The translations under genes were made by a program, and so were the position numbers. The notes beneath the pieces are model-generated. The model did not search any database. It was not told the DNA's origin and worked only from the letters and a program-made list of their open reading frames with translations. A DNA stretch of 54,011 nt. Source: Sphingobacteriales bacterium (GTDB taxonomy: Bacteria > Bacteroidota > Bacteroidia > Chitinophagales > CAIOSU01). Below, piece by piece: positions 43,650-54,011 of this stretch. The stretch covers positions 1 to 54,011 of the forward strand of contig JAIXOI010000052.1 in the NCBI GenBank assembly GCA_027486795.1, given 5' to 3'. Each line of letters begins with the position of its first letter. The stretch's first letter is position 1.

Positions 43650-45143
43650 CTACAACCAGAAAAAAACGAGCCAAGTAAGAAACAGCACTGGCAATAAGAT
43701 GGGTACTGCAAACTTTATGATATAGTTTAAGAAGCTGGGCATACCAAGGCCCTCTTCTTCGGCAATGGCTTTTACCATAAAGTTGGGCGCATTGCCTATG
43801 TAGGTAAATGCCCCAAAAAATACCGATGCTATTGATACTGCTGCCAAATAATCCATAGAGCTTACCCCGTCTAGCATTACCCCATCAGCAAATTGTCTTA
43901 CCTGCTCTGGGTTACCAATGTCCAGCCCTATTTTGCCCATGGCCGCTGCCAGAAAGTTAAGATACGTGGGGGCATTATCGAGCACGCCCGAAAGGCTTCC
44001 TGCTGTCCAATATAGGCTGTTGGCGGTAACGAGATGGGCATTTTCTTGGGCAAATGCCCCGATTAGCTGCAGTGCGGGCATCATGGTAGCGAAAATGCCA
44101 ATGAACAGAAAGGCCACCTCCTTTATAGGGTCGAAGTTGAAGTGATTTTCTTCGAGAGCTGCACTATTAGATGTTTTGTAGGCCACCACCGCTGTAATTA
44201 GCATAATAAGCTCTCGCAAGTATGATATTTTATCGCCGTGATAGTTGATGTATAAGAAAGTTGGCAGTTCAATTACATTTGGGTCGATAAAAATGGCACC
44301 GATAACCGCCACCAAAAACAAGATGTTGCGCGCACCCATAATGCTAATTTTGCCAGTGTGTGGTTTACGGTGCACCACTTCAATTTTATTACGCTTATCA
44401 AACACAAAGAATATAGCCAGTAATAACCCAATAGCAAACATCCATGGACCCCACAGATTTAGCAAAGTCCACTCAAATGGTACCCCTTTCAAGAAACCAA
44501 GAAACAGCGGCGGATCGCCCATGGGTGTAAGGCTTCCGCCCACATTGCTTACTATAAAAATGAAGAACACCACATGGTAGGGCAACAACCGACGCCTGTT
44601 GAGGCGCATATATGGCCGTATGAGCAACATAGAGGCACCAGTGGTACCTATAAAATTGGCCAACACGGCACCGAAGAGCAGCAGTATTACGTTTACCATG
44701 GCAGTGCCCTGCTTATCAACCTTGATTAATATGCCGCCGGAAACCACGTATAGTGCACCAAGCAGGGCTATAAATGAGGCATACTCGGCCAAGCTGTGCA
44801 CGGGGTGGTGCTGGTCGTGCAGTATAAAGAGATAATAACCCACCACCACTGCCCCTAAACCAACAGCAATTACTGGGTAATATTTATGCCAAAAACGACC
44901 ATAAAACAGCGGCCCAGTGGCAATCATGCCCAGCAGCAGCAAAAACGGTATAACCGACCAAATGGCAGGCATGGCATGAAGGCTGGAAACGCGTACATCA
45001 GTTGATTGCACTGCCACTGGGTCTTCGAGTATGGGCAGCGTATCGGCAAAAGCGGGTTGTGCCGCAAAGGCGAGGCATACAAGAAGAAGCCCTAGTATAG
45101 TAGGGTAACTAAAAATCTTGCGGAAGTAGGTACTTAAACTCAT
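43650..45143 (-). CDS. nhaD: Na+/H+ antiporter, NhaD type
   Basis: The 497-residue protein has a signal-like N-terminus and about 12 membrane segments. It matches the NhaD branch of the ion transporter superfamily: ANFIGTTGASMLLIRPYMRLN, FIVSNVGGSLTPMGDPPLFLGFLKGVPFEW, SGVLDNAPTYLNFLAA and TYIGNAPNFMVKAIAEEEG. These paired helical-hairpin motifs are diagnostic. It exports sodium or lithium for protons at the cytoplasmic membrane. The glutamate dehydrogenase gene ends 44 bases upstream on the same strand, so the two may be co-transcribed. Confidence 0.93.
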   Translation of the reverse strand: MSLSTYFRKIFSYPTILGLLLVCLAFAAQPAFADTLPILEDPVAVQSTDVRVSSLHAMPAIWSVIPFLLLLGMIATGPLFYGRFWHKYYPVIAVGLGAVVVGYYLFILHDQHHPVHSLAEYASFIALLGALYVVSGGILIKVDKQGTAMVNVILLLFGAVLANFIGTTGASMLLIRPYMRLNRRRLLPYHVVFFIFIVSNVGGSLTPMGDPPLFLGFLKGVPFEWTLLNLWGPWMFAIGLLLAIFFVFDKRNKIEVVHRKPHTGKISIMGARNILFLVAVIGAIFIDPNVIELPTFLYINYHGDKISYLRELIMLITAVVAYKTSNSAALEENHFNFDPIKEVAFLFIGIFATMMPALQLIGAFAQENAHLVTANSLYWTAGSLSGVLDNAPTYLNFLAAAMGKIGLDIGNPEQVRQFADGVMLDGVSSMDYLAAVSIASVFFGAFTYIGNAPNFMVKAIAEEEGLGMPSFLNYIIKFAVPILLPVLFLTWLVFFWL

Positions 45144-45187
45144 TAAACCCGATTAACAAATCAACCAAAAAACTGATTAACCCAACC

Positions 45188-46429
45188 CTACTGCTGCGCA
45201 ACCAATTTGCCCAACGCAATGTTCAAGGCCCTACGGGTAAGGTGTAATTGTCCGCCAGGCAGTTGGTTCAACTCTTCAATGCCCTTTCGTATGGTAGCTG
45301 ATACATCCTCAAAAATGGCTTCATCAGTTACCTCTATCTCGGTTTTTTGCATTAGGTATGCAAAAACGCGCGCCATACCACAGTTAGCTATAAAGTCGGG
45401 TATAAGGCTTAGTTTGCCATCAACATACTCGGTAGTATCCCCAAAAAACACATCGCTTTCTTTAAACGGCACATTGGCACCGCTACTTATTACCTGGCAA
45501 CCTGCTGCCGCTAGCCTATCAATATGCTCCCGGGTAAGCAACCTACTGGCCGCTGCAGGTATAAATATGTCAGCTTTCACGTCCCAAATTCGGTTGTTCA
45601 CTTCTTCAAACGGGATAACCTTGTCGCTAATCAGCTTGTTTTGTTTGCGGTTGAGCAATAAAGTACGGATGGCCGCAAAATCGAGTCCATTGGCATCAAT
45701 GATGCCGCCCTCACGGTCGATAATGCCTACGATTTTTACGCCGTTTTGTGCCAAATAGTATGCCGCTGCACCTGCCACATTGCCCCAACCTTGGAGAATG
45801 GCGGTTTTGCCCACTAAATCGGTTTTACGCACCAAATCGTAATAATGCCTCACCGACTCCGACACTCCAAAGCCCGTAATCATGTCGGCAACCAGTATCT
45901 TTTGGCTAAGGTCGGGCGAGTAGCGTGGGTCTTCCAGTTTTTTCGATACCCCTTGGCGCAATTGGCCAATGATATGGATTTTCTCTTTTTGACTTGCTTG
46001 GAAGTGGCCCGTTACAATACCCTCTTGCGGGTGCCAAAGGCCGTAGTCTTCGGTTATGGGTATTACATCGTGTATTTCGTCAATATTTAAGTCTCCACCC
46101 GTGCCGTAGTAGTTTTTCAATAACGGTATTACGGCCTGGAACCAACGGTTGAGCACCTCGTTTTTGCGCGGGTCGCTCGGGTCGAAGTTGATACCACTCT
46201 TAGCGCCGCCAATCGCAGGACCCGACACGGTAAATTTTATCTCCATCACTTTAGCCAAGCTCTCCACTTCGCTGCGGTCAAGACCCTTGCGCATGCGTGT
46301 GCCGCCACCGGCCGCACCACCGCGCAACGAATTGATAACCACCCAGCCTTCGGCATCGGTAAATGGGTCTTTCCACTCAAATACGATCTCCGGCTTTTTG
46401 CTTTTGTACTGGTTTAGTAAAGCGTCCAT
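45188..46429 (-). CDS. Glu/Leu/Phe/Val dehydrogenase family protein
   Basis: The 413-residue enzyme catalyses NAD(P)-linked oxidative deamination of an amino acid, most likely glutamate. It contains LRGGAAGGGTRMRKG, the catalytic Lys segment SGPAIGGAKSGINFDPSDP, YYGTGGDLNIDEIHDV (active-site Asp), the Rossmann stretch LQGWGNVAGAAAYYLAQNGVKIVGIIDREG and FIPAAASRLLTREHIDRL. The substrate cannot be assigned firmly, as leucine and glutamate enzymes share these motifs. A perfect TACCTTTG -7 element (minus, 46450-46457) lies 20 bases upstream of the ATG. Confidence 0.9.
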   Translation of the reverse strand: MDALLNQYKSKKPEIVFEWKDPFTDAEGWVVINSLRGGAAGGGTRMRKGLDRSEVESLAKVMEIKFTVSGPAIGGAKSGINFDPSDPRKNEVLNRWFQAVIPLLKNYYGTGGDLNIDEIHDVIPITEDYGLWHPQEGIVTGHFQASQKEKIHIIGQLRQGVSKKLEDPRYSPDLSQKILVADMITGFGVSESVRHYYDLVRKTDLVGKTAILQGWGNVAGAAAYYLAQNGVKIVGIIDREGGIIDANGLDFAAIRTLLLNRKQNKLISDKVIPFEEVNNRIWDVKADIFIPAAASRLLTREHIDRLAAAGCQVISSGANVPFKESDVFFGDTTEYVDGKLSLIPDFIANCGMARVFAYLMQKTEIEVTDEAIFEDVSATIRKGIEELNQLPGGQLHLTRRALNIALGKLVAQQ

Positions 46430-46792
46430 AGCGGGGTTTTGGTTTCGGGCAAAGGTAATGATTTTGGTTGACGGGGGAATGGTTAAAGTATTGGTTGGTT
46501 TTTTGCGAAAAGGTGGGTTTTGTCGTCCTCGAAGTGTGTTTTGGTTGGGGTTTCAGCGCTGTTATCGGTCTATATTACATGTCAAGTTTCCCGTTGGTAA
46601 GTTGCTTGGGGCATGTGCTTGGGTGGCGGCATATTGCAACCCCCACACCATCCCGTGCTACAACAACAAAATTGGGTTGGTGCTACATGTTAATAAAGCC
46701 TATTTTTAGTTAATTATTGTTGAGGCGGTTATCGGCCCCTTTTGCCGTTAACTGGATTGTCTTACTTTCAAGGTTCAACTAACCCAACACAC
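46430..46792. other. Intergenic region with a dispersed repeat
   Basis: No gene is supported in these 363 bases. The glutamate dehydrogenase -7 element is at 46450-46457 on the minus strand. A 21-base segment at 46515-46535 recurs with one mismatch in opposite orientation at 52925-52945. A GGTTA/TAACT-type imperfect hairpin lies around 46728-46754. TACTTTCA near 46763 is a weak -7 candidate for the next gene. Confidence 0.45.
46515..46535 (-). repeat. Dispersed 21-base repeat, copy 1
   Basis: On the minus strand it reads ACTTCG, then A, then GGACGACAAAACCC. The copy at 52925-52945 (plus strand) differs only in the A (T there). The upstream flanks (CCCCAACCAAAAC against CCCCTAACAAACAT) are also alike. 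Both copies are intergenic. Confidence 0.65.
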
Positions 46793-47338
46793 ATGAGTAA
46801 TACAGCAAAATTTGCATTAACCACTATTTGGATATTGTTTTCTAGAAGTTACGATGCTTATTGCACTCACCAGCTTACGCCAGACCTAAGCAAAGAAGCC
46901 AACCCATTAGTATCGGTTTTGGGTTTGGGCTGGGCGCCGTTATTGCTGGTAATAGGTGCATTAACCCTATATACCATTTACATCTATTATCTAGCGGTTT
47001 TTAAACCAAAGCCTTTGCTGCCCAGCGAACCAGGATATTCTTTTGGCAATGTGTTTGTTTACCTGTACTTGGGCCGGAAAGACAATTGGCTTGCCCTGTT
47101 TTACAAGCTCCCTAACAGTTTTGGTAGGTTTAATCAATACATGGGGCATGTATTCACCCGCTGCTTGGTATTTGCAGGCGTAGTATCTACTACCATGTGG
47201 CTTCTTATAAACCACACGGCCAGCTACAAAACCATGCATAGCGCACCAGTTGTATACGCCATCCTTGTTTCGGGCATTGCCATTATTGTATACCAATGGA
47301 GTCGGCAGCAATACCAACTGTATCTTGCGCAGCAATGA
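46793..47338 (+). CDS. Integral membrane protein, DUF5658-like
   Basis: The 181-residue protein has about four hydrophobic segments. Near its start it has SRSYDAYCTHQLTPDLSKEANPLVSVLGLGW, which recalls the lDxxxTxxxL...E-x-NP turn of DUF5658-type small membrane proteins. The match is by pattern only. A cytoplasmic loop (FKPKPLLPSEPGYSFG) and a basic tail follow. ATG 46793 is preferred; the ATG at 46742 would add 17 residues with no conserved look. A terminator follows the stop. Confidence 0.65.
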   Translation: MSNTAKFALTTIWILFSRSYDAYCTHQLTPDLSKEANPLVSVLGLGWAPLLLVIGALTLYTIYIYYLAVFKPKPLLPSEPGYSFGNVFVYLYLGRKDNWLALFYKLPNSFGRFNQYMGHVFTRCLVFAGVVSTTMWLLINHTASYKTMHSAPVVYAILVSGIAIIVYQWSRQQYQLYLAQQ

Positions 47339-47378
47339 GTAGAGTGTAATTTAAGCAACTAAAAATACAAGGGTACAG

Positions 47379-47416
47379 CCTCATGCGGTTGATTGACCGT
47401 TTTTGAGGTGTTTTTT
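47379..47416 (+). terminator. Terminator after the DUF5658-like gene
   Basis: CCTCA (47379-47383) pairs with TGAGG (47404-47408), and CGGT (47386-47389) with ACCG (47396-47399) inside it. TGTTTTTTC follows. It is 41 bases after the stop. Confidence 0.7.
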
Positions 47417-47429
47417 CTTCTGCTGTGCA

Positions 47430-47460
47430 GTTTAACTTTTCCGCTTTTGGAAGTTTAAAC
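47430..47460 (-). terminator. Imperfect hairpin after the DUF2256 gene
   Basis: GTTTAACTTTTCC and GGAAGTTTAAAC form an imperfect stem around CGCTTTT. It lies 8 bases beyond the stop of the minus-strand DUF2256 gene and may end that transcript. Confidence 0.4.
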
Positions 47461-47467
47461 ATGCTGA

Positions 47468-47620
47468 TTAAGGTTTTGCTTGCTTTTCAGTTTTATGCTT
47501 TCGACATCGCTCGCTGCAGTATTTTACTTCGTGCCAAACCTTTTCCCACTTTTTGCGCCAAGTAAATGGCCGGCCACAGGTGGCGCAGGTTTTGGTAGGC
47601 AGGTGGGGCTTTTGGTGCAT
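47468..47620 (-). CDS. DUF2256 small zinc-ribbon-like protein, 50 residues
   Basis: This short gene encodes [19 protein letters not shown], then [20 protein letters not shown] and a lysine-rich tail. The CxxCGRPFxWRKKW...W-x-x-VKYCSxxC pattern is the DUF2256 family, in which four Cys presumably bind zinc. Typical family length is about 45-60 residues, so it is complete. Members are often found with photolyase/cryptochrome genes, but none is in this window. It is easily missed because of its size. Confidence 0.85.
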
Positions 47621-47803
47621 ATCACTTAAACAAGGTTGCGGGCACTTTGTTTGTGCAATGCCTTTTTGTTGGCAGGGCTACAGGCACCCCAAAACGGGAT
47701 AGTTAAAAATTAAAAGGGCAAATACCAATCTCACTAGCCGATTATCAGCTAGTGCAATTAGTACATAAGTAAAGCTGGTATTTTGGTATGCGGTGCCTGA
47801 GAG

Positions 47804-48310
47804 TTAAGCAAACGCCCAATTATTCTCATCGGCACTGGGGCCATAGCTGCCCGGTATCGGTATATTCAACAAGCGCAGGTATAGCCCCAATTGCGCCCGG
47901 TGGTGTATTATTTGGTCGAAAGTATCGCGTATGCTTTCGTACTTGGTGCTTTCGTCATAGATGTCAGCGCCATTCCGCATGGTCCAGATGTCGGTAAGTT
48001 GGTCTTCTTTGGCTTTTTGTAGGCCCGCCCTACCATCAATCAGTTTTTTCTCGAAAAAAGCCAGCAAATCGGGTGTGTTGTGTATCATGGTAGGTTGGTA
48101 AGGCATTATGGCAAAGTCGAGTCCATCGGTAGTTACCACCATATCAACCCAAGCTGGTATTTCGGCAATGTGGGTGGCCAGTTCTCTCAAGGTCATGCTC
48201 TTTTCGTGCGGGCGAAACTCAAACTGCTCGGTCGGCATGCGCTCTAGCATTTTGCGGGTAGTTTGGGCTTCTTTTTCTAGTTCTTTTTGTAGCAATGCAA
48301 TAACGTTCAT
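47804..48310 (-). CDS. DinB-family four-helix protein
   Basis: The 168-residue protein begins MNVIALLQKELEKEAQTTRKMLERMP and has the DinB/DUF664 pattern: FRPHEKSMTLRELATHIAEIPAW (first metal His) and DQIIHHRAQLGLYLRLLNIPIPGSYGPSADE (His pair plus the family's P-x-x-YGP-x-x-D end). Members are metal-binding, often DNA-damage-inducible or thiol-dependent transferases of mostly unknown substrate. ATG 48310 is chosen; a start at 48349 would add a non-conserved leader. Confidence 0.85.
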   Translation of the reverse strand: MNVIALLQKELEKEAQTTRKMLERMPTEQFEFRPHEKSMTLRELATHIAEIPAWVDMVVTTDGLDFAIMPYQPTMIHNTPDLLAFFEKKLIDGRAGLQKAKEDQLTDIWTMRNGADIYDESTKYESIRDTFDQIIHHRAQLGLYLRLLNIPIPGSYGPSADENNWAFA

Positions 48311-48470
48311 AGTGCTTTGTTTTTGGTTATGCCCCAAAGTTGCAGGCACCCACTGACAACCCTATGGCAGTGCCTTTTTTACAACGAAAAAGATTTTTTC
48401 GGCCATGCATCTTTTTGCACCGTATAACCCTCTTATTAGCAATAACCACATATCTAAAACCCATTCGATT

Positions 48471-49013
48471 ATGTATATCCTCCTCGCGCTGGCCATTGGC
48501 ATTACCTGCTGGACTTTAACCGAATACCTCCTGCATCGTTTTTTGGGCCACGAGCACCAAGGCAAAAACTTTTTTAAGGCTGAGCACGCCGTGCACCATA
48601 GCAAGGCCAACTACTTTGCGCCGGCTTACAAAAAGGCTACCGCGGCTTTGGTGGTTTCAGCAGGCATGCTTGCTTTATTAAACCTAGTGTTGCCTTTCAT
48701 GGTTGCCTTGGCATTTATTATAGGTTTTGTGGGCATGTATGGCGTTTACGAAGCCACCCACTTCCGTTACCATGCGGCCAACCCAGTGCCAGTATTCTTG
48801 TTTTTGCGCAAGCACCACTTTTATCACCATTTCCATAACCCGCGTAAAAACCACGGCGTAACCACTCGTGTTTGGGACCGTGTATTTGGCACCTACCACC
48901 CCATACGCGAAACCACGGTGCGCATACCGCGCGCTATGAGCATGCGCTGGCTGGTAGAGGGCGATGAATTAAAAGACCGCTACGTGGGTCACTTTAAGCT
49001 ATCGGGTAGGTAG
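48471..49013 (+). CDS. Fatty acid hydroxylase / sterol desaturase family protein
   Basis: The 180-residue membrane protein carries the eight-histidine di-iron set: LHRFLGHEH, EHAVHHSK, HFRYH and RKHHFYHHFHNPRKNHGVTTRVWDRVFGTYHP. Four hydrophobic segments surround the motifs. Family members hydroxylate or desaturate lipids, for example the 2- or 3-position of fatty acids in Bacteroidota sphingolipids, or carotenoids; the substrate is not evident. The ATG at 48471 starts a clean first helix. It overlaps the convergent WYL regulator by 20 bases. Confidence 0.88.
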   Translation: MYILLALAIGITCWTLTEYLLHRFLGHEHQGKNFFKAEHAVHHSKANYFAPAYKKATAALVVSAGMLALLNLVLPFMVALAFIIGFVGMYGVYEATHFRYHAANPVPVFLFLRKHHFYHHFHNPRKNHGVTTRVWDRVFGTYHPIRETTVRIPRAMSMRWLVEGDELKDRYVGHFKLSGR

Positions 49014-49716
49014 CAGTAGGCTGGTAATCTTCATGTTTCTTCAGCTCTTCAACGTAATCGCTCAAGGGCATGTGTTCCAGCTTTTTGAAAGGCACATCCA
49101 AACAGCGCATGGCTTGTATGCGCGTTACCTTAAAATCGCGATATTCTTGGCGCAGGTGGCACCAAGCAATTAAGTGCCAGGCCAGGGCATAAAACACCAG
49201 CCCAATGGGCTCTACTTGGCGTTTGCTGGCAATGCCGCCCTTGTTTTGGTATTCTAGTTCTAGTATATGGCTGCTGGTAATGGCCGCTTGTAGCACCGAG
49301 AGATACTCTTGGTCGTATTTAAAGCAATCGGGCACATGAAAACTGATGCGGTTATGCAGCGTTTCTAGCTGCTCTTTTTGCGCTGTGCGCAGCACTGCCT
49401 TTACCTTATTGAGCGCCGTAGAGTAGTGTTTTTGGATGCTTTTATCGGCAAAGGCGCTCACCACGCTTTCCATCAGCAGCAAGGCATTGGCCTCATCGCT
49501 GCTAAACGATACGGGCGGCAGAAAATACCCTTGCACCAAAAAGTACCCTTTAGTAGGCTCAAACCCCACCGGAATGCCCTGCTCGCCGAGCGCCTTAATA
49601 TCCCGATACACCGTGCGCACACTAATACCGAAATGCTCCGCAATACCCTCGGCGGTATAGTGCTTTTTACCTTGCAACAGGGTTATGATGGACAATAGGC
49701 GGGTGAGGCGGTGCAT
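48994..49716 (-). CDS. YafY-type transcriptional regulator (HTH plus WYL domain)
   Basis: The 240-residue protein has an N-terminal DeoR/HTH_11 winged helix (HRLTRLLSIITLLQ, YTAEGIAEHFGISVRTVYRDIKAL, EQGIPV) and a WYL-type domain (about 135-230) with ITSSHILELEYQN, RQVEPIGLVFYALAWHLIAWC and EYRDFKVTRIQ, which correspond to the WYL-domain core. WYL proteins are ligand- or nucleic-acid-sensing regulators, often near DNA-damage or defence genes. The divergent restriction-modification locus starts 138 bases away. ATG 49716 is preferred over 49746. Confidence 0.88.
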   Translation of the reverse strand: MHRLTRLLSIITLLQGKKHYTAEGIAEHFGISVRTVYRDIKALGEQGIPVGFEPTKGYFLVQGYFLPPVSFSSDEANALLLMESVVSAFADKSIQKHYSTALNKVKAVLRTAQKEQLETLHNRISFHVPDCFKYDQEYLSVLQAAITSSHILELEYQNKGGIASKRQVEPIGLVFYALAWHLIAWCHLRQEYRDFKVTRIQAMRCLDVPFKKLEHMPLSDYVEELKKHEDYQPTATYPIA

Positions 49717-49813
49717 GGGGGTGGGTGGGTAAAGGTTATAAAGCAATTGTTGGTAAAGTTAACAGGTTGTTACTTTTCTTTTTTAGTAACTTAGCTTTTA
49801 TTTGCAAATATAT

Positions 49814-49831
49814 TTAGCATATCTTTGCTAA
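49814..49831 (+). promoter_or_regulatory. Promoter dyad upstream of the C5-methyltransferase
   Basis: TTAGCA (49814-49819) and TGCTAA (49826-49831) form a perfect 6-6-6 dyad that includes the -7 element TATCTTTG (49820-49827). The start codon is at 49855. A bound dimer here would block transcription, a common arrangement in restriction-modification control. Confidence 0.6.
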
Positions 49832-49854
49832 GGACCACATACACATCGATAATT

Positions 49855-51189
49855 ATGGATCTGCTAGAGAAAATAAGTATAGAGGAACTGAAGAATATCA
49901 ATCATAAAAAATTACTTACGCAATACTCTGAATTTGACAAAGCAGCTTTTACTCACTACTTGCACAATAGCAAAAATGGTGTATCAAAATCGTATAAGAA
50001 CACGGCCGTTTCTTATATCAAAAAGTCTTTGGCATATAAGTTTCCAAACGAAGAAATTACTAATGTTCTAGCGGAATCAGCATTACAATATGTTTTATTT
50101 GAGCAGTTAAAATCTGAAATCCCCTTTCCATCTCCTGAAAATCCAAAATTTACATTTATTGACCTGTTTGCTGGTATCGGTGGATTTCGTTTAGCAATGC
50201 AGAATTTAGGTGGTAAATGTGTGTTTACAAGTGAGTGGGATGAACAAGCCCAGAAAACATATGCTGCGAATTTTGGTGAAGTGCCTTTTGGGGATATTAC
50301 TAAAGAGCAAACCAAAAATTTTATTCCAGATGGGTTCGACGTTTTGTGCGCAGGATTCCCTTGCCAGGCATTCTCTATAGCTGGTAAACGTGGTGGATTT
50401 GAAGATACGCGTGGCACCTTGTTTTTTGATGTTGCCGAGATTATTAAACGTAAAAGGCCCAAGGCAATATTTCTAGAGAACGTTAAAGGTTTGTTTAATC
50501 ATGATAAAGGTAAAACGTTAACGACAATACTAAATGTGTTGAGAAATGATTTAGGATATTTTGTACCAGACCCTAGGATAATGAATGCCAAGGACTTTGG
50601 TGTTCCACAAAATAGAGAGCGAATATTTATAGTGGGTTTTCGTAAAGATTTAGAAATCAAAGAGTTTGAGTACCCAAAACCTTTTGACAAAAAAGAAACA
50701 ATAGCCAAAATTAAAGAAGACGATGTTGTTTCTGTTAAGTATTATCTTTCAAATACTTATTTGCGTACTTTAGTTGAGCATAAGAAGCGACACGAGGAAA
50801 AAGGTAATGGTTTTGGTTTTGAGATTATACCTGATGACGGTATTTCTAATGCTGTGGTTTGTGGCGGCATGGGTAGGGAACGTAATTTAATTTATGACCA
50901 TAGACTAACTAACTTTACGCCAGTAACCCATATAAAAGGCGAGGTAAATAAACAAGGAATAAGGAAAATGACTCCGCGCGAGTGGGCGAGGCTTCAAGGA
51001 TTTCCTAATGAGTTTATAATCCCAGTGGCAGATGCCTCTGCATATAAGCAATTTGGGAATTCTGTTGCGGTTCCAGCGATTCAAGCTACGGGTAAGCAAA
51101 TCATAGATAAAATCGTAACACCTAATGCTTACAGGAAACAAGGGAGAGTGGAGCGAAATTTACGCACTGCTAAAGATGCTGTCAGATAG
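49855..51189 (+). CDS. DNA (cytosine-5-)-methyltransferase of an HpaII-type R-M system
   Basis: The 444-residue enzyme has the ordered C5 motifs: I FIDLFAGIGG (101-110), IV with the catalytic Cys in AGFPCQAFSIAGKRGG (Cys170), VI AIFLENVKG, VIII PQNRERIFIVGF, a target-recognition region (about 290-390), then REWARLQGFP and X in GNSVAVPAIQATG. An N-terminal extension of about 100 mostly helical residues (SIEELKNINHKKLL, AVSYIKKSLAYKF) precedes motif I. In some C5 enzymes such a part binds their own promoter. The last 65 bases overlap the endonuclease gene. The locus is AT-rich compared with its surroundings. Confidence 0.94.
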   Translation: MDLLEKISIEELKNINHKKLLTQYSEFDKAAFTHYLHNSKNGVSKSYKNTAVSYIKKSLAYKFPNEEITNVLAESALQYVLFEQLKSEIPFPSPENPKFTFIDLFAGIGGFRLAMQNLGGKCVFTSEWDEQAQKTYAANFGEVPFGDITKEQTKNFIPDGFDVLCAGFPCQAFSIAGKRGGFEDTRGTLFFDVAEIIKRKRPKAIFLENVKGLFNHDKGKTLTTILNVLRNDLGYFVPDPRIMNAKDFGVPQNRERIFIVGFRKDLEIKEFEYPKPFDKKETIAKIKEDDVVSVKYYLSNTYLRTLVEHKKRHEEKGNGFGFEIIPDDGISNAVVCGGMGRERNLIYDHRLTNFTPVTHIKGEVNKQGIRKMTPREWARLQGFPNEFIIPVADASAYKQFGNSVAVPAIQATGKQIIDKIVTPNAYRKQGRVERNLRTAKDAVR

Positions 51190-52204
51190 GAATTTGTATC
51201 CAGGGGATGCCAATTTGGAAAAAGTACAAGGATTGGTGTTTCCCATCGTTAAGATTTTAAGGGATGAGTCTGAAGGAACTTATGAATATACGTATGACCA
51301 AGATTTAATAATTATCAATGGATGTGACAAAGAATACCGTATTCCAATTACCCAATTTCATAGCAACGCATCTTACCTTTTAAACCAAATTAAATCTGCT
51401 TCTTCAGGTACCTTTGCAATTCCAGAAATTGAATCATTTATAAGGTCCTTCAGCTGTAATTCTATCAAAGCTCGATCATCAAAAAAGAGTGATATTAGGG
51501 TTCTTATACACGACTTGCGCACAGGAGTTAATCCTGAACTCGGCTTTAGCATCAAGTCGCAGCTAGGTGGTGCGTCAACTTTGCTAAATGCTGGAAAGAC
51601 AACGAACTTTGTCTTTAAAATTGAAGGTTCAACAATTACTTCGGAAGACATTGTTGCAATCAATTCAATCGAGTCGAGAAGTAAGATTAAGGATAGAATT
51701 GAAGCTATTGCGAAACTCGGAGGGGTTTTCAAATTCCTTAATACCGAAACTTCGATTTTTGGTAATAATTTAACGTTAATTGATAGTGCGCTTCCTGCTC
51801 TTTTAGCAAGTATAACCCTAAAGTTTTACTCCTCTTATCTTAACAACCTTACAGATTTAGTGGAGGCAGCTTCAAAAGACAACCCACTTCAATATAACAT
51901 TTCAGAAGGCCACCCATTTTATGAATATAAGATGAAACGCTTTTTGACAGATATAGCTTTAGGCATGATGCCATCTAAAGTATGGACGGGTGAACTCGAT
52001 GCTACTGGCGGATACCTAATTGTAAAGGATGACGGAGAATTGCTGTGTTACCATATTTATAATAGGAACCAGTTTGAAGATTATCTTCTAAACAATACAA
52101 AACTTGAAACAGCTAGCAGTAGCAGACATGAATTTGGAAATGTTTATTCAGAAAAAGGTAACTTATATTTCAAATTAAATCTTCAGATACGATTTTTAAA
52201 ATAA
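51125..52204 (+). CDS. HpaII-family type II restriction endonuclease
   Basis: The 359-residue protein begins LTGNKGEWSEIYALLKMLSD, the family start of HpaII-type endonucleases (usual length about 350-360), which cut CCGG in HpaII itself. A possible PD-(D/E)XK variant is D123 in KSDIRVLIHD with FSIK (Ser142, Lys144). Its start lies inside the methyltransferase gene (65-base overlap in another frame), so the two are translationally linked. That the target is CCGG here is inference from the family. Confidence 0.85.
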   Translation: MLTGNKGEWSEIYALLKMLSDRNLYPGDANLEKVQGLVFPIVKILRDESEGTYEYTYDQDLIIINGCDKEYRIPITQFHSNASYLLNQIKSASSGTFAIPEIESFIRSFSCNSIKARSSKKSDIRVLIHDLRTGVNPELGFSIKSQLGGASTLLNAGKTTNFVFKIEGSTITSEDIVAINSIESRSKIKDRIEAIAKLGGVFKFLNTETSIFGNNLTLIDSALPALLASITLKFYSSYLNNLTDLVEAASKDNPLQYNISEGHPFYEYKMKRFLTDIALGMMPSKVWTGELDATGGYLIVKDDGELLCYHIYNRNQFEDYLLNNTKLETASSSRHEFGNVYSEKGNLYFKLNLQIRFLK

Positions 52205-52225
52205 TATTTCCAATCATTTAGTCCA

Positions 52226-52849
52226 ATGAGTCAATTAATTAAATTAGGGATTGTCAAAGACAGGAAGGGAGCAACTCTTAAAATCTTTAATAGGCTTTTC
52301 CCAAATTTTCTCGAGATAAACTATTTGACTCCTTCGGAATATATTAATACTTGCTGGAGTCAATTTAAAAAAGAGAACAATAACGATAAAGCGACCAACG
52401 GGAAAATGTTTGAATACATAATTGCATCTCTTTTTGTGAGAGAAAATTTACTTCCCTTTTTCGTCGCTCCTCAAATAACTTTTGTTCCAAATGTCATATT
52501 TGACTTCATGTTTTATAGTGAAGAGTATGGTCCAATTTGTATCTCTTTAAAAAAATCGTTGCGCGAAAGGTATAAGCAAGCTGACCTTGAAGCAATGGCA
52601 TTAAAGCAGGTTCACCGTCGAGCTCAAACTTATCTTTTAACTTTAGACAAAGGGGATGCAGAAAATGCTAACAAAAAAATAAAAGATGGCGAGATTTCAG
52701 CACTAACTGAAGTCATTACTGCTACTGAAAATTCGTTTGACACTTTGATATTATACCTGAAATCACTGACTCTGATTATTCCTAGGGAGGTACCAATAAT
52801 AAAGGCCCAACAAATAATTACTCTAGAAAATGCGGGCAAGGTTAGGTAG
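52226..52849 (+). CDS. PD-(D/E)XK nuclease-like protein linked to the R-M genes
   Basis: The 207-residue protein lies 21 bases after the endonuclease gene on the same strand. A likely PD-(D/E)XK core is visible: Glu63 in NGKMFEYIIASLF, Asp93 in PNVIFDFMFY and Ser107-x-Lys109 in ICISLKKSLRERYKQADLEA, followed by a VHRRAQTYLLTL helix. The layout is that of restriction-type nucleases, with a highly basic SLRERYKQ loop. It is not a Vsr repair nuclease by motif. Its role may be a second cutting specificity, nicking or accessory control; the family is unknown to me. Confidence 0.7.
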   Translation: MSQLIKLGIVKDRKGATLKIFNRLFPNFLEINYLTPSEYINTCWSQFKKENNNDKATNGKMFEYIIASLFVRENLLPFFVAPQITFVPNVIFDFMFYSEEYGPICISLKKSLRERYKQADLEAMALKQVHRRAQTYLLTLDKGDAENANKKIKDGEISALTEVITATENSFDTLILYLKSLTLIIPREVPIIKAQQIITLENAGKVR

Positions 52850-52924
52850 GGTGTTTATAAGTCCAGTATCTCTCAAAATTGAAGCTTCCGTAAGCCTACT
52901 ACCCCACAACCCCTAACAAACATC

Positions 52925-52945
52925 ACTTCGTGGACGACAAAACCC
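52925..52945 (+). repeat. Dispersed 21-base repeat, copy 2
   Basis: ACTTCGTGGACGACAAAACC plus one C matches the minus-strand copy at 46515-46535 with one mismatch. It lies between the nuclease-like gene and the long inverted repeat. Confidence 0.65.
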
Positions 52946-52952
52946 TAAAAAA

Positions 52953-53025
52953 GATGTACAAAGTACAAGGTACGAAGTACGAGGTAAGGCAAGTCAATCA
53001 CATTGTACCTTGTACTTCGTACATC
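52953..53025. repeat. 21-bp inverted repeat with 31-base loop
   Basis: The 21 bases at 52953-52973 and 53005-53025 are reverse complements with one mismatch that would be a G-U wobble in RNA. Both arms are built from GTAC-rich words (GATGTAC, AAGTAC, AAGGTAC) related to the TTACGA/GTACGA leader repeats of hisS and typA. It sits between convergent genes and could end both transcripts. It could also be a small mobile or regulatory repeat. Confidence 0.85.
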
Positions 53026-53030
53026 GTACA

Positions 53031-54011
53031 TCACGAAAGATGTTTCCTCAAAAACCCGCACATAGCTTTATAGAACTCAAACTTGTTTTCTTGGTTGCGG
53101 AAACCGTGGCCTTCGTTGGCTTTTACGAGGTAGGGCACTTGCACGCCATGGGCACGCAGGGCTTTTACAATCTGGTCGCTTTCGTCAATGTTCACGCGAG
53201 GGTCTTTGGCGCCCTGCACAATAAACAACGGGGCCTTTATTTTATCTACGTGAAACACCGGCGAGCTGGCGTGCATCATGGCTTTGTCGCGCTCGGGGTG
53301 GCCCACCATTTCGTACATCATATCTAGGTATGGTTTCCAGTACGGCGGTATGGTTTCTAAAAAGCTGAACAGGTTGCTCACGCCAACATAATCAATGGCG
53401 CATCGGTATAGTTCAGGCGTGTAGGTAACACCCGACAGGGTAGCATAGCCGCCGTAGCTGCCGCCATATATGGCAATGCGGGCGGGGTCGGCAATGCCTT
53501 GGCCAATGAGCCAGTTTACGCCATCGGTTATGTCGTTTTGCATGGTTTGGCCCCACTGCTTAAACGAGCTTTGCCAAAACGCGCGGCCATAGCCCGTGCT
53601 GCCCCTAAAATTCATTTGAAACACGGCATAGCCGCGGTTTGCCAGCAACTGCACTTCGGGGTTAAAGCCCCAGCCATCGCGGTGCCAAGGGCCGCCGTGA
53701 GGGTTTACCACCACGGGCAGGTTTTTGCCCGCCGAGCCTTGTGGTATGGTGAGGTAGCCGTGTATGGTTAGTCCGTCGCGGCTGGTGTAGGTTATGGGCT
53801 TCATTTCGGCCATTTCGGCTTCGTTCAGCTTAGGGCTCACCTCGGCCAGCTTATCCAACTTACCCGTTACGGCGCTATAAAAATAGTAGCTACCCAAGCT
53901 GCGGTCGCTATACGTGCGCACCACAAACAGCTCTTCGGCTCGGTCGTGCGAGGTAAGCACCACCTCGTAGCCCGGCAATAGCTCAAACAAATGCTTGTAA
54001 ATGCGCTCGGC
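53031..54011 (-). CDS. S9-family prolyl oligopeptidase-like peptidase, C-terminal part
   Basis: The gene runs off the right edge, so the 326 visible codons are the C-terminal part. The alpha/beta-hydrolase catalytic domain is complete: VVNPHGGPWHRD (oxyanion region), GYAVFQMNFRGSTGYGRAFW, the nucleophile Ser in IYGGSYGGYATL, the Asp in FIVQGAKDPRVNIDESDQ and the His in VKANEGHGFRNQENKFEFY. The part further upstream reads as the end of a beta-propeller. Such enzymes cut short proline-containing or dipeptidyl substrates. The reading frame stays open to base 54011, so no start is called. Confidence 0.9.
   Translation of the reverse strand, partial: AERIYKHLFELLPGYEVVLTSHDRAEELFVVRTYSDRSLGSYYFYSAVTGKLDKLAEVSPKLNEAEMAEMKPITYTSRDGLTIHGYLTIPQGSAGKNLPVVVNPHGGPWHRDGWGFNPEVQLLANRGYAVFQMNFRGSTGYGRAFWQSSFKQWGQTMQNDITDGVNWLIGQGIADPARIAIYGGSYGGYATLSGVTYTPELYRCAIDYVGVSNLFSFLETIPPYWKPYLDMMYEMVGHPERDKAMMHASSPVFHVDKIKAPLFIVQGAKDPRVNIDESDQIVKALRAHGVQVPYLVKANEGHGFRNQENKFEFYKAMCGFLRKHLS

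Follow-up and report, generated by a model that had tools for sequence, protein, structure and literature searches.

A putative mobile restriction-modification island in which one cytosine methyltransferase may protect against two independently evolved nucleases

A Type II restriction-modification (R-M) system is usually taken to consist of a single nuclease and its dedicated methylase. We describe here a locus of a Sphingobacteriales bacterium (CAIOSU01; assembly GCA_027486795.1) whose arrangement departs from this usual pair of one cutter and one marker. It lies on the forward strand of contig JAIXOI010000052.1, in a stretch of 54,011 nt that we call the window, and consists of three consecutive genes: a cytosine-C5 DNA methyltransferase, probably CCGG-specific (M, 49855-51189), a full-length HpaII-family restriction endonuclease of 359 residues (R, 51125-52204) and a protein of 207 residues (X, 52226-52849). 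We suggest that M-R-X is a mobile Type II R-M island, in which a single CCGG-specific methyltransferase would protect the host from two independently evolved nucleases, R and X; we give this reading a probability of roughly three in four. It is backed, in sequences and predicted models, by the identities of the three genes, the fold and motif of X, the existence of separate M-R and M-X pairs, the presence or absence of the block in related genomes and a recent exchange of X. An earlier sequence-only reading of the window had proposed either one methyltransferase protecting against two nucleases, now the best-supported interpretation, or a nuclease accompanied by a nicking or accessory factor, which is disfavored by the finding that the usual partner of X is a methyltransferase, without an HpaII gene.

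M matches PF00145 with an expectation value (E) of 1.1e-103. We placed its start at the ATG at 49855, which corresponds to the start of several relatives; a possible alternative is the TTG at 49825. The protein is 70-77% identical to the methylases adjoining PF09561 genes at four other loci (L032, L034, L039 and L040) and 59% identical to that at a fifth (L038), and it shares 41-73% identity with the methylases of C5 M-X pairs outside the genus. R matches PF09561 (RE_HpaII) over positions 1-359 of 359 (E 1e-141; 472.8 bits against a cut-off of 25), as well as PADLOC REase_II (E 1.1e-117). With an HpaII-like C5 methylase as its partner, R has the gene pairing of an HpaII-type R-M system. The three reading frames and their spacing were confirmed as previously read: M and R overlap by 65 bases (51125-51189), and R and X are separated by 21 (52205-52225). 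The last ~22 codons of M extend into the start of R (51120-51189), and the 65-base overlap is kept in G001, one of the four other members of the genus that we compared (G001-G004; the window genome is G000). Elsewhere the overlap is 4 bases (L034, L039 and L040) or 17 bases (L032), with L038 unsettled; the 65-base form was seen only in this genus.

Sequence and predicted structure place X in the CCGG family (PspGI/EcoRII-C/Ecl18kI/BsaWI), as a small restriction-endonuclease-like protein. Excerpts of PMC4652773 and PMC6344858 describe this family as having a permuted PD...K...D/E site, a KX12-13E pattern and a CCGG-reading R-(D/E)R motif on a helix; BsaWI has it as a continuous run (R169-D170-R171) that begins four residues past K165 (PMC4652773, in part). 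In our alignment of 15 X sequences, that of the window included, the residues invariant throughout are N58, G59, E63, D93, S107, K109, R113, E114, R115, K117, Q118, D120, E122, K127, V129, H130 and T139. Among them are the helix glutamate E63 (codon at 52412-52414); D93 (52502-52504), a metal-binding aspartate by family analogy; and, within residues 107-122 (52544-52591), S107-x-K109, the R-(D/E)R motif R113-E114-R115 and E122. The sequence-only reading had correctly picked out E63, D93, S107 and K109, whose invariance in 15 sequences indicates that they are not there by chance, and had overlooked R113-E114-R115, E122 and the family itself. X therefore has the permuted active site with its helix glutamate (E63, D93, K109, and E122 at K+13), lacking only the P of "PD", which is F92 in the window. 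It also has the recognition motif after the catalytic lysine, with K109, RER and E122 spaced as in the BsaWI family pattern.

Searched against PDB sequences, a profile of the 15 sequences matched Ecl18kI (E 9.7e-5) and PspGI (E 0.0043), in which the RER of X aligns to R186-E187-R188 and R164-E165-R166, respectively (numbers counted from the profile alignments). X and PspGI have in common the lysine, RER at +4 to +6 and the glutamate at +13, and Ecl18kI shares the lysine and RER. Pfam RE_BsaWI (PF18643) was matched at E <= 1 by all 15 members of the alignment, with a best value of 8e-6. Searched alone, X had no phmmer match among PDB chains, no match in NCBIfam or PADLOC, and only a weak restriction-endonuclease match in PHROGs (E 0.11). 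None of the libraries searched has a curated model for the small branch, of about 190-220 residues, to which X belongs.

The PD-(D/E)XK-type fold previously proposed for X was found in its predicted model (AlphaFold2 from 11 sequences; predicted local distance difference test, pLDDT, 87.8). Foldseek placed PspGI first among PDB entries (E 4.7e-5), with BsaWI and Kpn2I within the top five. With a structural aligner, CCGG-family entries fill ranks 1-8: PspGI aligned over 170 residues at Z 13.8 and a root-mean-square deviation of 3.4, followed by EcoRII-C (Z 12.8), Ecl18kI (11.7) and Bse634I (10.2), and Cfr10I, SgrAI, NgoMIV, PfoI, AgeI and Kpn2I lie at Z 8.5-9.8. The model thus resembles ten family members at Z 8.5-13.8, with BsaWI lower.

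X was found in four of 99 related genomes (including the window's), at 12 genome-contig loci, on three plasmids, in one phage record and in six viral contigs, counts that partly overlap because some refer to the same place or to near-copies. The distinct loci number 25, obtained from 29 by removing L033 (the same as L001, the window), L045 (the protein of L021), L014 (a near-copy of L013) and L064 (weak, with no X match). L011 and L046, near-copies from different records, were counted apart, and L002-L005, L017, L050-L052, L056, L061 and L062 are pieces of places already counted. A profile search of 395 genomes of the phylum gave six additional weak matches (E 8e-6 to 8e-4); the weak profile matches in G163, G298, G396, G149, G400, G294 and G057 were not counted as X, and the three weak-match loci run in Pfam (L026, L028 and L030) gave RE_BsaWI twice and EcoRII-C once. 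Hosts of the X branch are Bacteroidota, Pseudomonadota and Bacillota genomes or plasmids, a Patescibacteria metagenome-assembled genome and phage contigs.

At 17 of the 25 loci a methyltransferase lies directly beside X and there is no HpaII gene; 15 of these have a C5 gene followed by X, and two have a partner of the N4/N6 type (Pfam N6_N4_Mtase), before X in L009 and after it in L044. The number rises to 19 with the two M-R-X runs, in the window and in G001. X thus changes from one methylase to an unrelated one, the behavior that a nuclease in need of protection should show. Six loci have no methylase directly beside X: L012 and L047, which reach a contig edge upstream, and L016, L025, L020 and L021. 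The X of L016 is broken, with an N4-type match ~1 kb away. In L025 (G356), an HNH nuclease gene (Pfam, 588-1349) stands between an N4-type methylase match, here too ~1 kb away, and X, possibly another two-nuclease arrangement. L020 (5932-6537) is a Priestia megaterium plasmid bearing X, with a Vsr gene ~4 kb off and no methylase match nearby; L021 (6001-6600) is a 636-kb phage record whose X protein is that of L045 and which has no methylase match within ~6 kb, hence a phage nuclease without visible protection of its own.

R and X also occur apart. An HpaII-family gene above the cut-off is present in 10 of the 395 phylum genomes, and only one of these, the window's, has X. A methylase of the window kind stands beside R, with no X within the stretch examined, in L032, L034, L038, L039 and L040; otherwise, L035-L037 have no match to the window M nearby, and G195 has R in pieces. 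R was confirmed in none of the viral contigs. Outside the window genome, R and X were found together in G001, in the order M-R-X, and in a Paludibacter (G487), where R follows X by 20 bases, the region upstream of X is lost at a contig edge and the best methylase match elsewhere in the genome is just 35% identical. The expectation that X recurs near HpaII-type pairs was thus borne out only narrowly, in two genomes of this genus and on one Paludibacter contig, but the regular neighbor of X is a methyltransferase. In the X tree, the Paludibacter X falls together with two X proteins of M-X pairs (support 100/99), apart from the X of the window; deeper forks are poorly supported. Because their X proteins group apart, M-R-X and the Paludibacter X-R look like separate events. 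In a tree of 21 methylases, with 8 of 18 inner branches well supported, those of M-R and M-X pairs interleave, and the M-R methylase of L040 falls in a clade (96/98) with two M-X ones. Since M-X and M-R pairs exist separately and their methylases are intermixed, X is in all likelihood a second nuclease complete in itself rather than an accessory to HpaII.

The sequence-only reading had drawn attention to an S-[IL]-K active site shared by R and X. The motif is literally there in both window proteins, but it is no evidence of a likeness between them, since the corresponding residue in the HpaII family is lysine in 8 of 11 rows and arginine in 3 of 11, and the fold searches of R and X had no common best match. 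A relationship of the two nucleases through this motif is therefore unsupported, and a weak or missing match does not prove that their folds differ. For the predicted model of R (pLDDT 81.5), no PDB entry reached E <= 0.001; HinP1I ranked third, at E 0.22. Arginine replaces the S-x-K lysine in the branch formed by L035, L036 and L037, which lack a match to the window M nearby and, to judge by their sequences, are possibly a divergent or inactive group.

M-R-X is an insertion of ~3.2 kb, absent at the same site in two sister genomes. The block, at 49718-52953, is missing in G003 and G002, which match the flanks on both sides, with 5-6 bases at the junction, and in which a WYL-regulator gene and an S9-peptidase gene become neighbors. 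G+C content is 31-38% in the block region (50000-52999) versus 43-56% in the flanks (44000-49499 and 53000-53999). The empty site supports the earlier suggestion that the three genes form one unit. In G001, the same S9 gene lies to the right, on a contig that starts inside X; to the left, the WYL gene was matched only as a stub (39 residues at 74%; frame open for ~51 codons, L024 5902-6055), and this flank is therefore rearranged there. In G004, the fifth member of the genus, X was not found, there was no WYL match in the 1.5 kb beside S9, and the insertion site is unreadable.

The two M-R-X genomes diverge very unequally along the block. Nucleotide identity between the window and G001 is 96-100% (49-50 of every 50 positions) from ~52101 to ~52870, versus 71-96% in M and the remainder of R; this near-identical tract (52101-52870, forward strand) holds where both are assembled, positions 52504-52748 being missing in G001. 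Synonymous divergence (dS) is 1.3 for the S9 gene, 1.1 for M outside the overlap and 0.54-0.56 for R, but 0.019 for residues 1-92 of X and 0 for residues 176-207 (~0.01 for X overall); X has one synonymous change in ~72 sites versus 90 in 233 for R (Fisher p 8e-12). With divergence falling from M to R to X, it follows that X and its border were exchanged, or gained in both lineages, far more recently than M and R. The comparison of G000 with G001 has too few changes in X to inform on selection; for R, by sequence comparison, the nonsynonymous divergence (dN) of 0.024 against a dS of 0.54 means strong purifying selection.

Several observations weigh against these interpretations. Only one of 628 Foldseek matches of the X model reached E <= 0.001, and BsaWI itself has a Z of only 7.1. 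BbvCI, which is outside the listed CCGG family, is Foldseek rank 2 with Z 9.9, and other non-family nucleases score in the middle of the family range (NucC 9.5, BsoBI 8.8, Can2 8.6), so the assignment of X to the CCGG family rests on the top ranks together with the motif. Against PF18643 the window X scores 19 bits, below the cut-off of 26.2. Position 110, adjoining the catalytic lysine, is K in the window versus T in 13 of the 14 other rows and V in one (PspGI has R at the equivalent position), and the end branch of the window X measures 0.96 in the X tree (median 0.41, range 0.08-1.66); given the unusual K110 and the long branch, a loss or shift of X function within M-R-X is conceivable. Methylase queries had no match in ~6 kb on each side of X in L020 and L021. 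Residues 93-175 of the G001 X (83 codons) fall between two contig ends. Finally, the activity and specificity that we attribute to M, R and X at this locus derive from sequences and models.

We infer that M methylates CCGG and that its mark also blocks X, which would cut CCGG, or a longer site with CCGG in it, when this is unmethylated. The specificity of M is suggested by its close relatives beside HpaII genes, and CCGG action has been shown or predicted for HpaII-type pairs elsewhere (PMC8099122 and PMC11837570, in the parts available). R, by family membership, would cut unmarked CCGG, and X would read the CCGG core through R-E-R and cut DNA without the mark. Longer sites with a CCGG core would come under the same protection, so X and R need not have identical targets. 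Should X cut where its family is described as cutting in an excerpt of PMC6344858, before the first C, it would leave 4-base ends, different from those of an R-type cut. X probably joined the pair because CCGG-containing sites were already protected by M; a second nuclease needs no second methylase.

HpaII cuts C^CGG, leaving 2-base ends. An advantage in redundancy may be imagined, although we regard it as doubtful: with two nucleases of unrelated fold under one mark, X making its cut ahead of CCGG and R within it, a phage inhibitor of one nuclease or the repair of one type of end would not be enough to overcome the island, and the shared methylase would let nuclease genes be added at no cost and spread faster than it does itself.

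Alternatively, X may be a passenger in transition, one nuclease replacing the other, with X or R heading for loss and no joint benefit. In its favor, the interleaving methylases are followed by two different nucleases from genome to genome, the arrival or exchange of X is recent, and R occurs with X in just one other lineage. The purifying selection on R argues against this scenario, as does the retention by the window X of every residue invariant in its family. It bears on the reason for the arrangement and not on the identity of X; it is hard to dismiss, and we consider it possible, if rather unlikely.

It is far less probable that X is a subunit or a nicking or accessory factor of the HpaII nuclease, acting only jointly with it, as in Type IIT enzymes or LlaJI. 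The tight gene order with its 21-base gap is consistent with such a role, and the structural matches of X include BbvCI and the small subunit of BspD6I. BbvCI, a Type IIT enzyme, also consists of two different nuclease chains, whose catalytic sites differ and serve the two strands of an asymmetric site (PMC6326814, in part). The LlaJI and C. cellulovorans Type II clusters likewise hold two nuclease genes in a single operon, there with two methylases; in LlaJI the parts are jointly required, all four proteins being reported as needed for phage resistance (PMC11779793, in part). M-R-X, in contrast, has one methylase, and each nuclease family is found without the other elsewhere. The mutual dependence expected of heteromeric chains is not seen across genomes: R was not found in 13 of the 15 other X-bearing genomes, several of which are drafts (two have it), X is present in one of the 10 R genomes, and HpaII genes with a methylase exist without X. 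X has, moreover, a complete site and a CCGG-reading motif of its own.

That X stands in for the Vsr mismatch-repair endonuclease often accompanying C5 methylases is most improbable: X is indeed a small nuclease-fold protein beside a C5 methylase, in a block filled by M, R and X, none of which matches Vsr, but 4 of the 15 direct C5 M-X pairs already have a Vsr-like gene just before M (L022, L006, L008 and L015 by tblastn, L006 confirmed by Pfam), X has RE_BsaWI as its sole match at E <= 1 and none to Pfam Vsr (PF03852), and X also adjoins N4/N6-type methylases, which do not make 5-methylcytosine. The original HpaII locus presumably includes a Vsr-like gene.

One methyltransferase serving two nucleases thus remains our preferred reading, and it sets the locus apart from described systems. 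HpaII-type R-M systems share with M-R the kind of methylase and the nuclease family PF09561; examples that are HpaII-like by their description in the available parts of PMC11837570 and PMC8099122 are those of F. psychrophilum (FpsJI) and of katablepharid mitochondria. They are described as comprising one nuclease and one methylase, whereas here a second, unrelated nuclease follows. X shares with the CCGG family (PspGI, the EcoRII catalytic domain, Ecl18kI, BsaWI, NgoMIV, Bse634I, Cfr10I, SgrAI, AgeI, Kpn2I and PfoI) the predicted fold and the D...S-x-K...E site, with a continuous R-(D/E)R four residues past the lysine as in BsaWI (PMC4652773, in part). It differs in its size, 207 residues versus 222-338 in the solved chains (222 being the EcoRII catalytic domain alone), and in its partner here, an HpaII-type CCGG methylase. 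The family reads sites of 4-8 bp, and bare CCGG is the target of none of the 11 members listed in the excerpts of PMC4652773 and PMC6344858. In open-licence papers we found no report of one methylase common to two independent nucleases.

Two features lie at the borders of the genes. Upstream of M, an inverted repeat (GTTACT...AGTAAC, 49769-49790), present in G001 too, and a TAnnTTTG box (49820-49827), a Bacteroidota promoter element, form a possible promoter or operator. A short stretch (52899-52945) that closely follows X and lies near the block's right border recurs twice more in contig 2 of G001 (L017 481-516 and 639-683) and once beside S9 in G004 (L055 2548-2583); it may be a repeat associated with the insertion.

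If a single methylase is able to serve two unrelated nucleases, a further nuclease can be taken up without a methylase of its own and is free to spread alone. The decrease in divergence from M to R to X between the two genomes suggests that such solo spread of a nuclease is under way here. X itself might be the most compact version of a well-studied recognition fold, and its target may be a bare 4-bp site.

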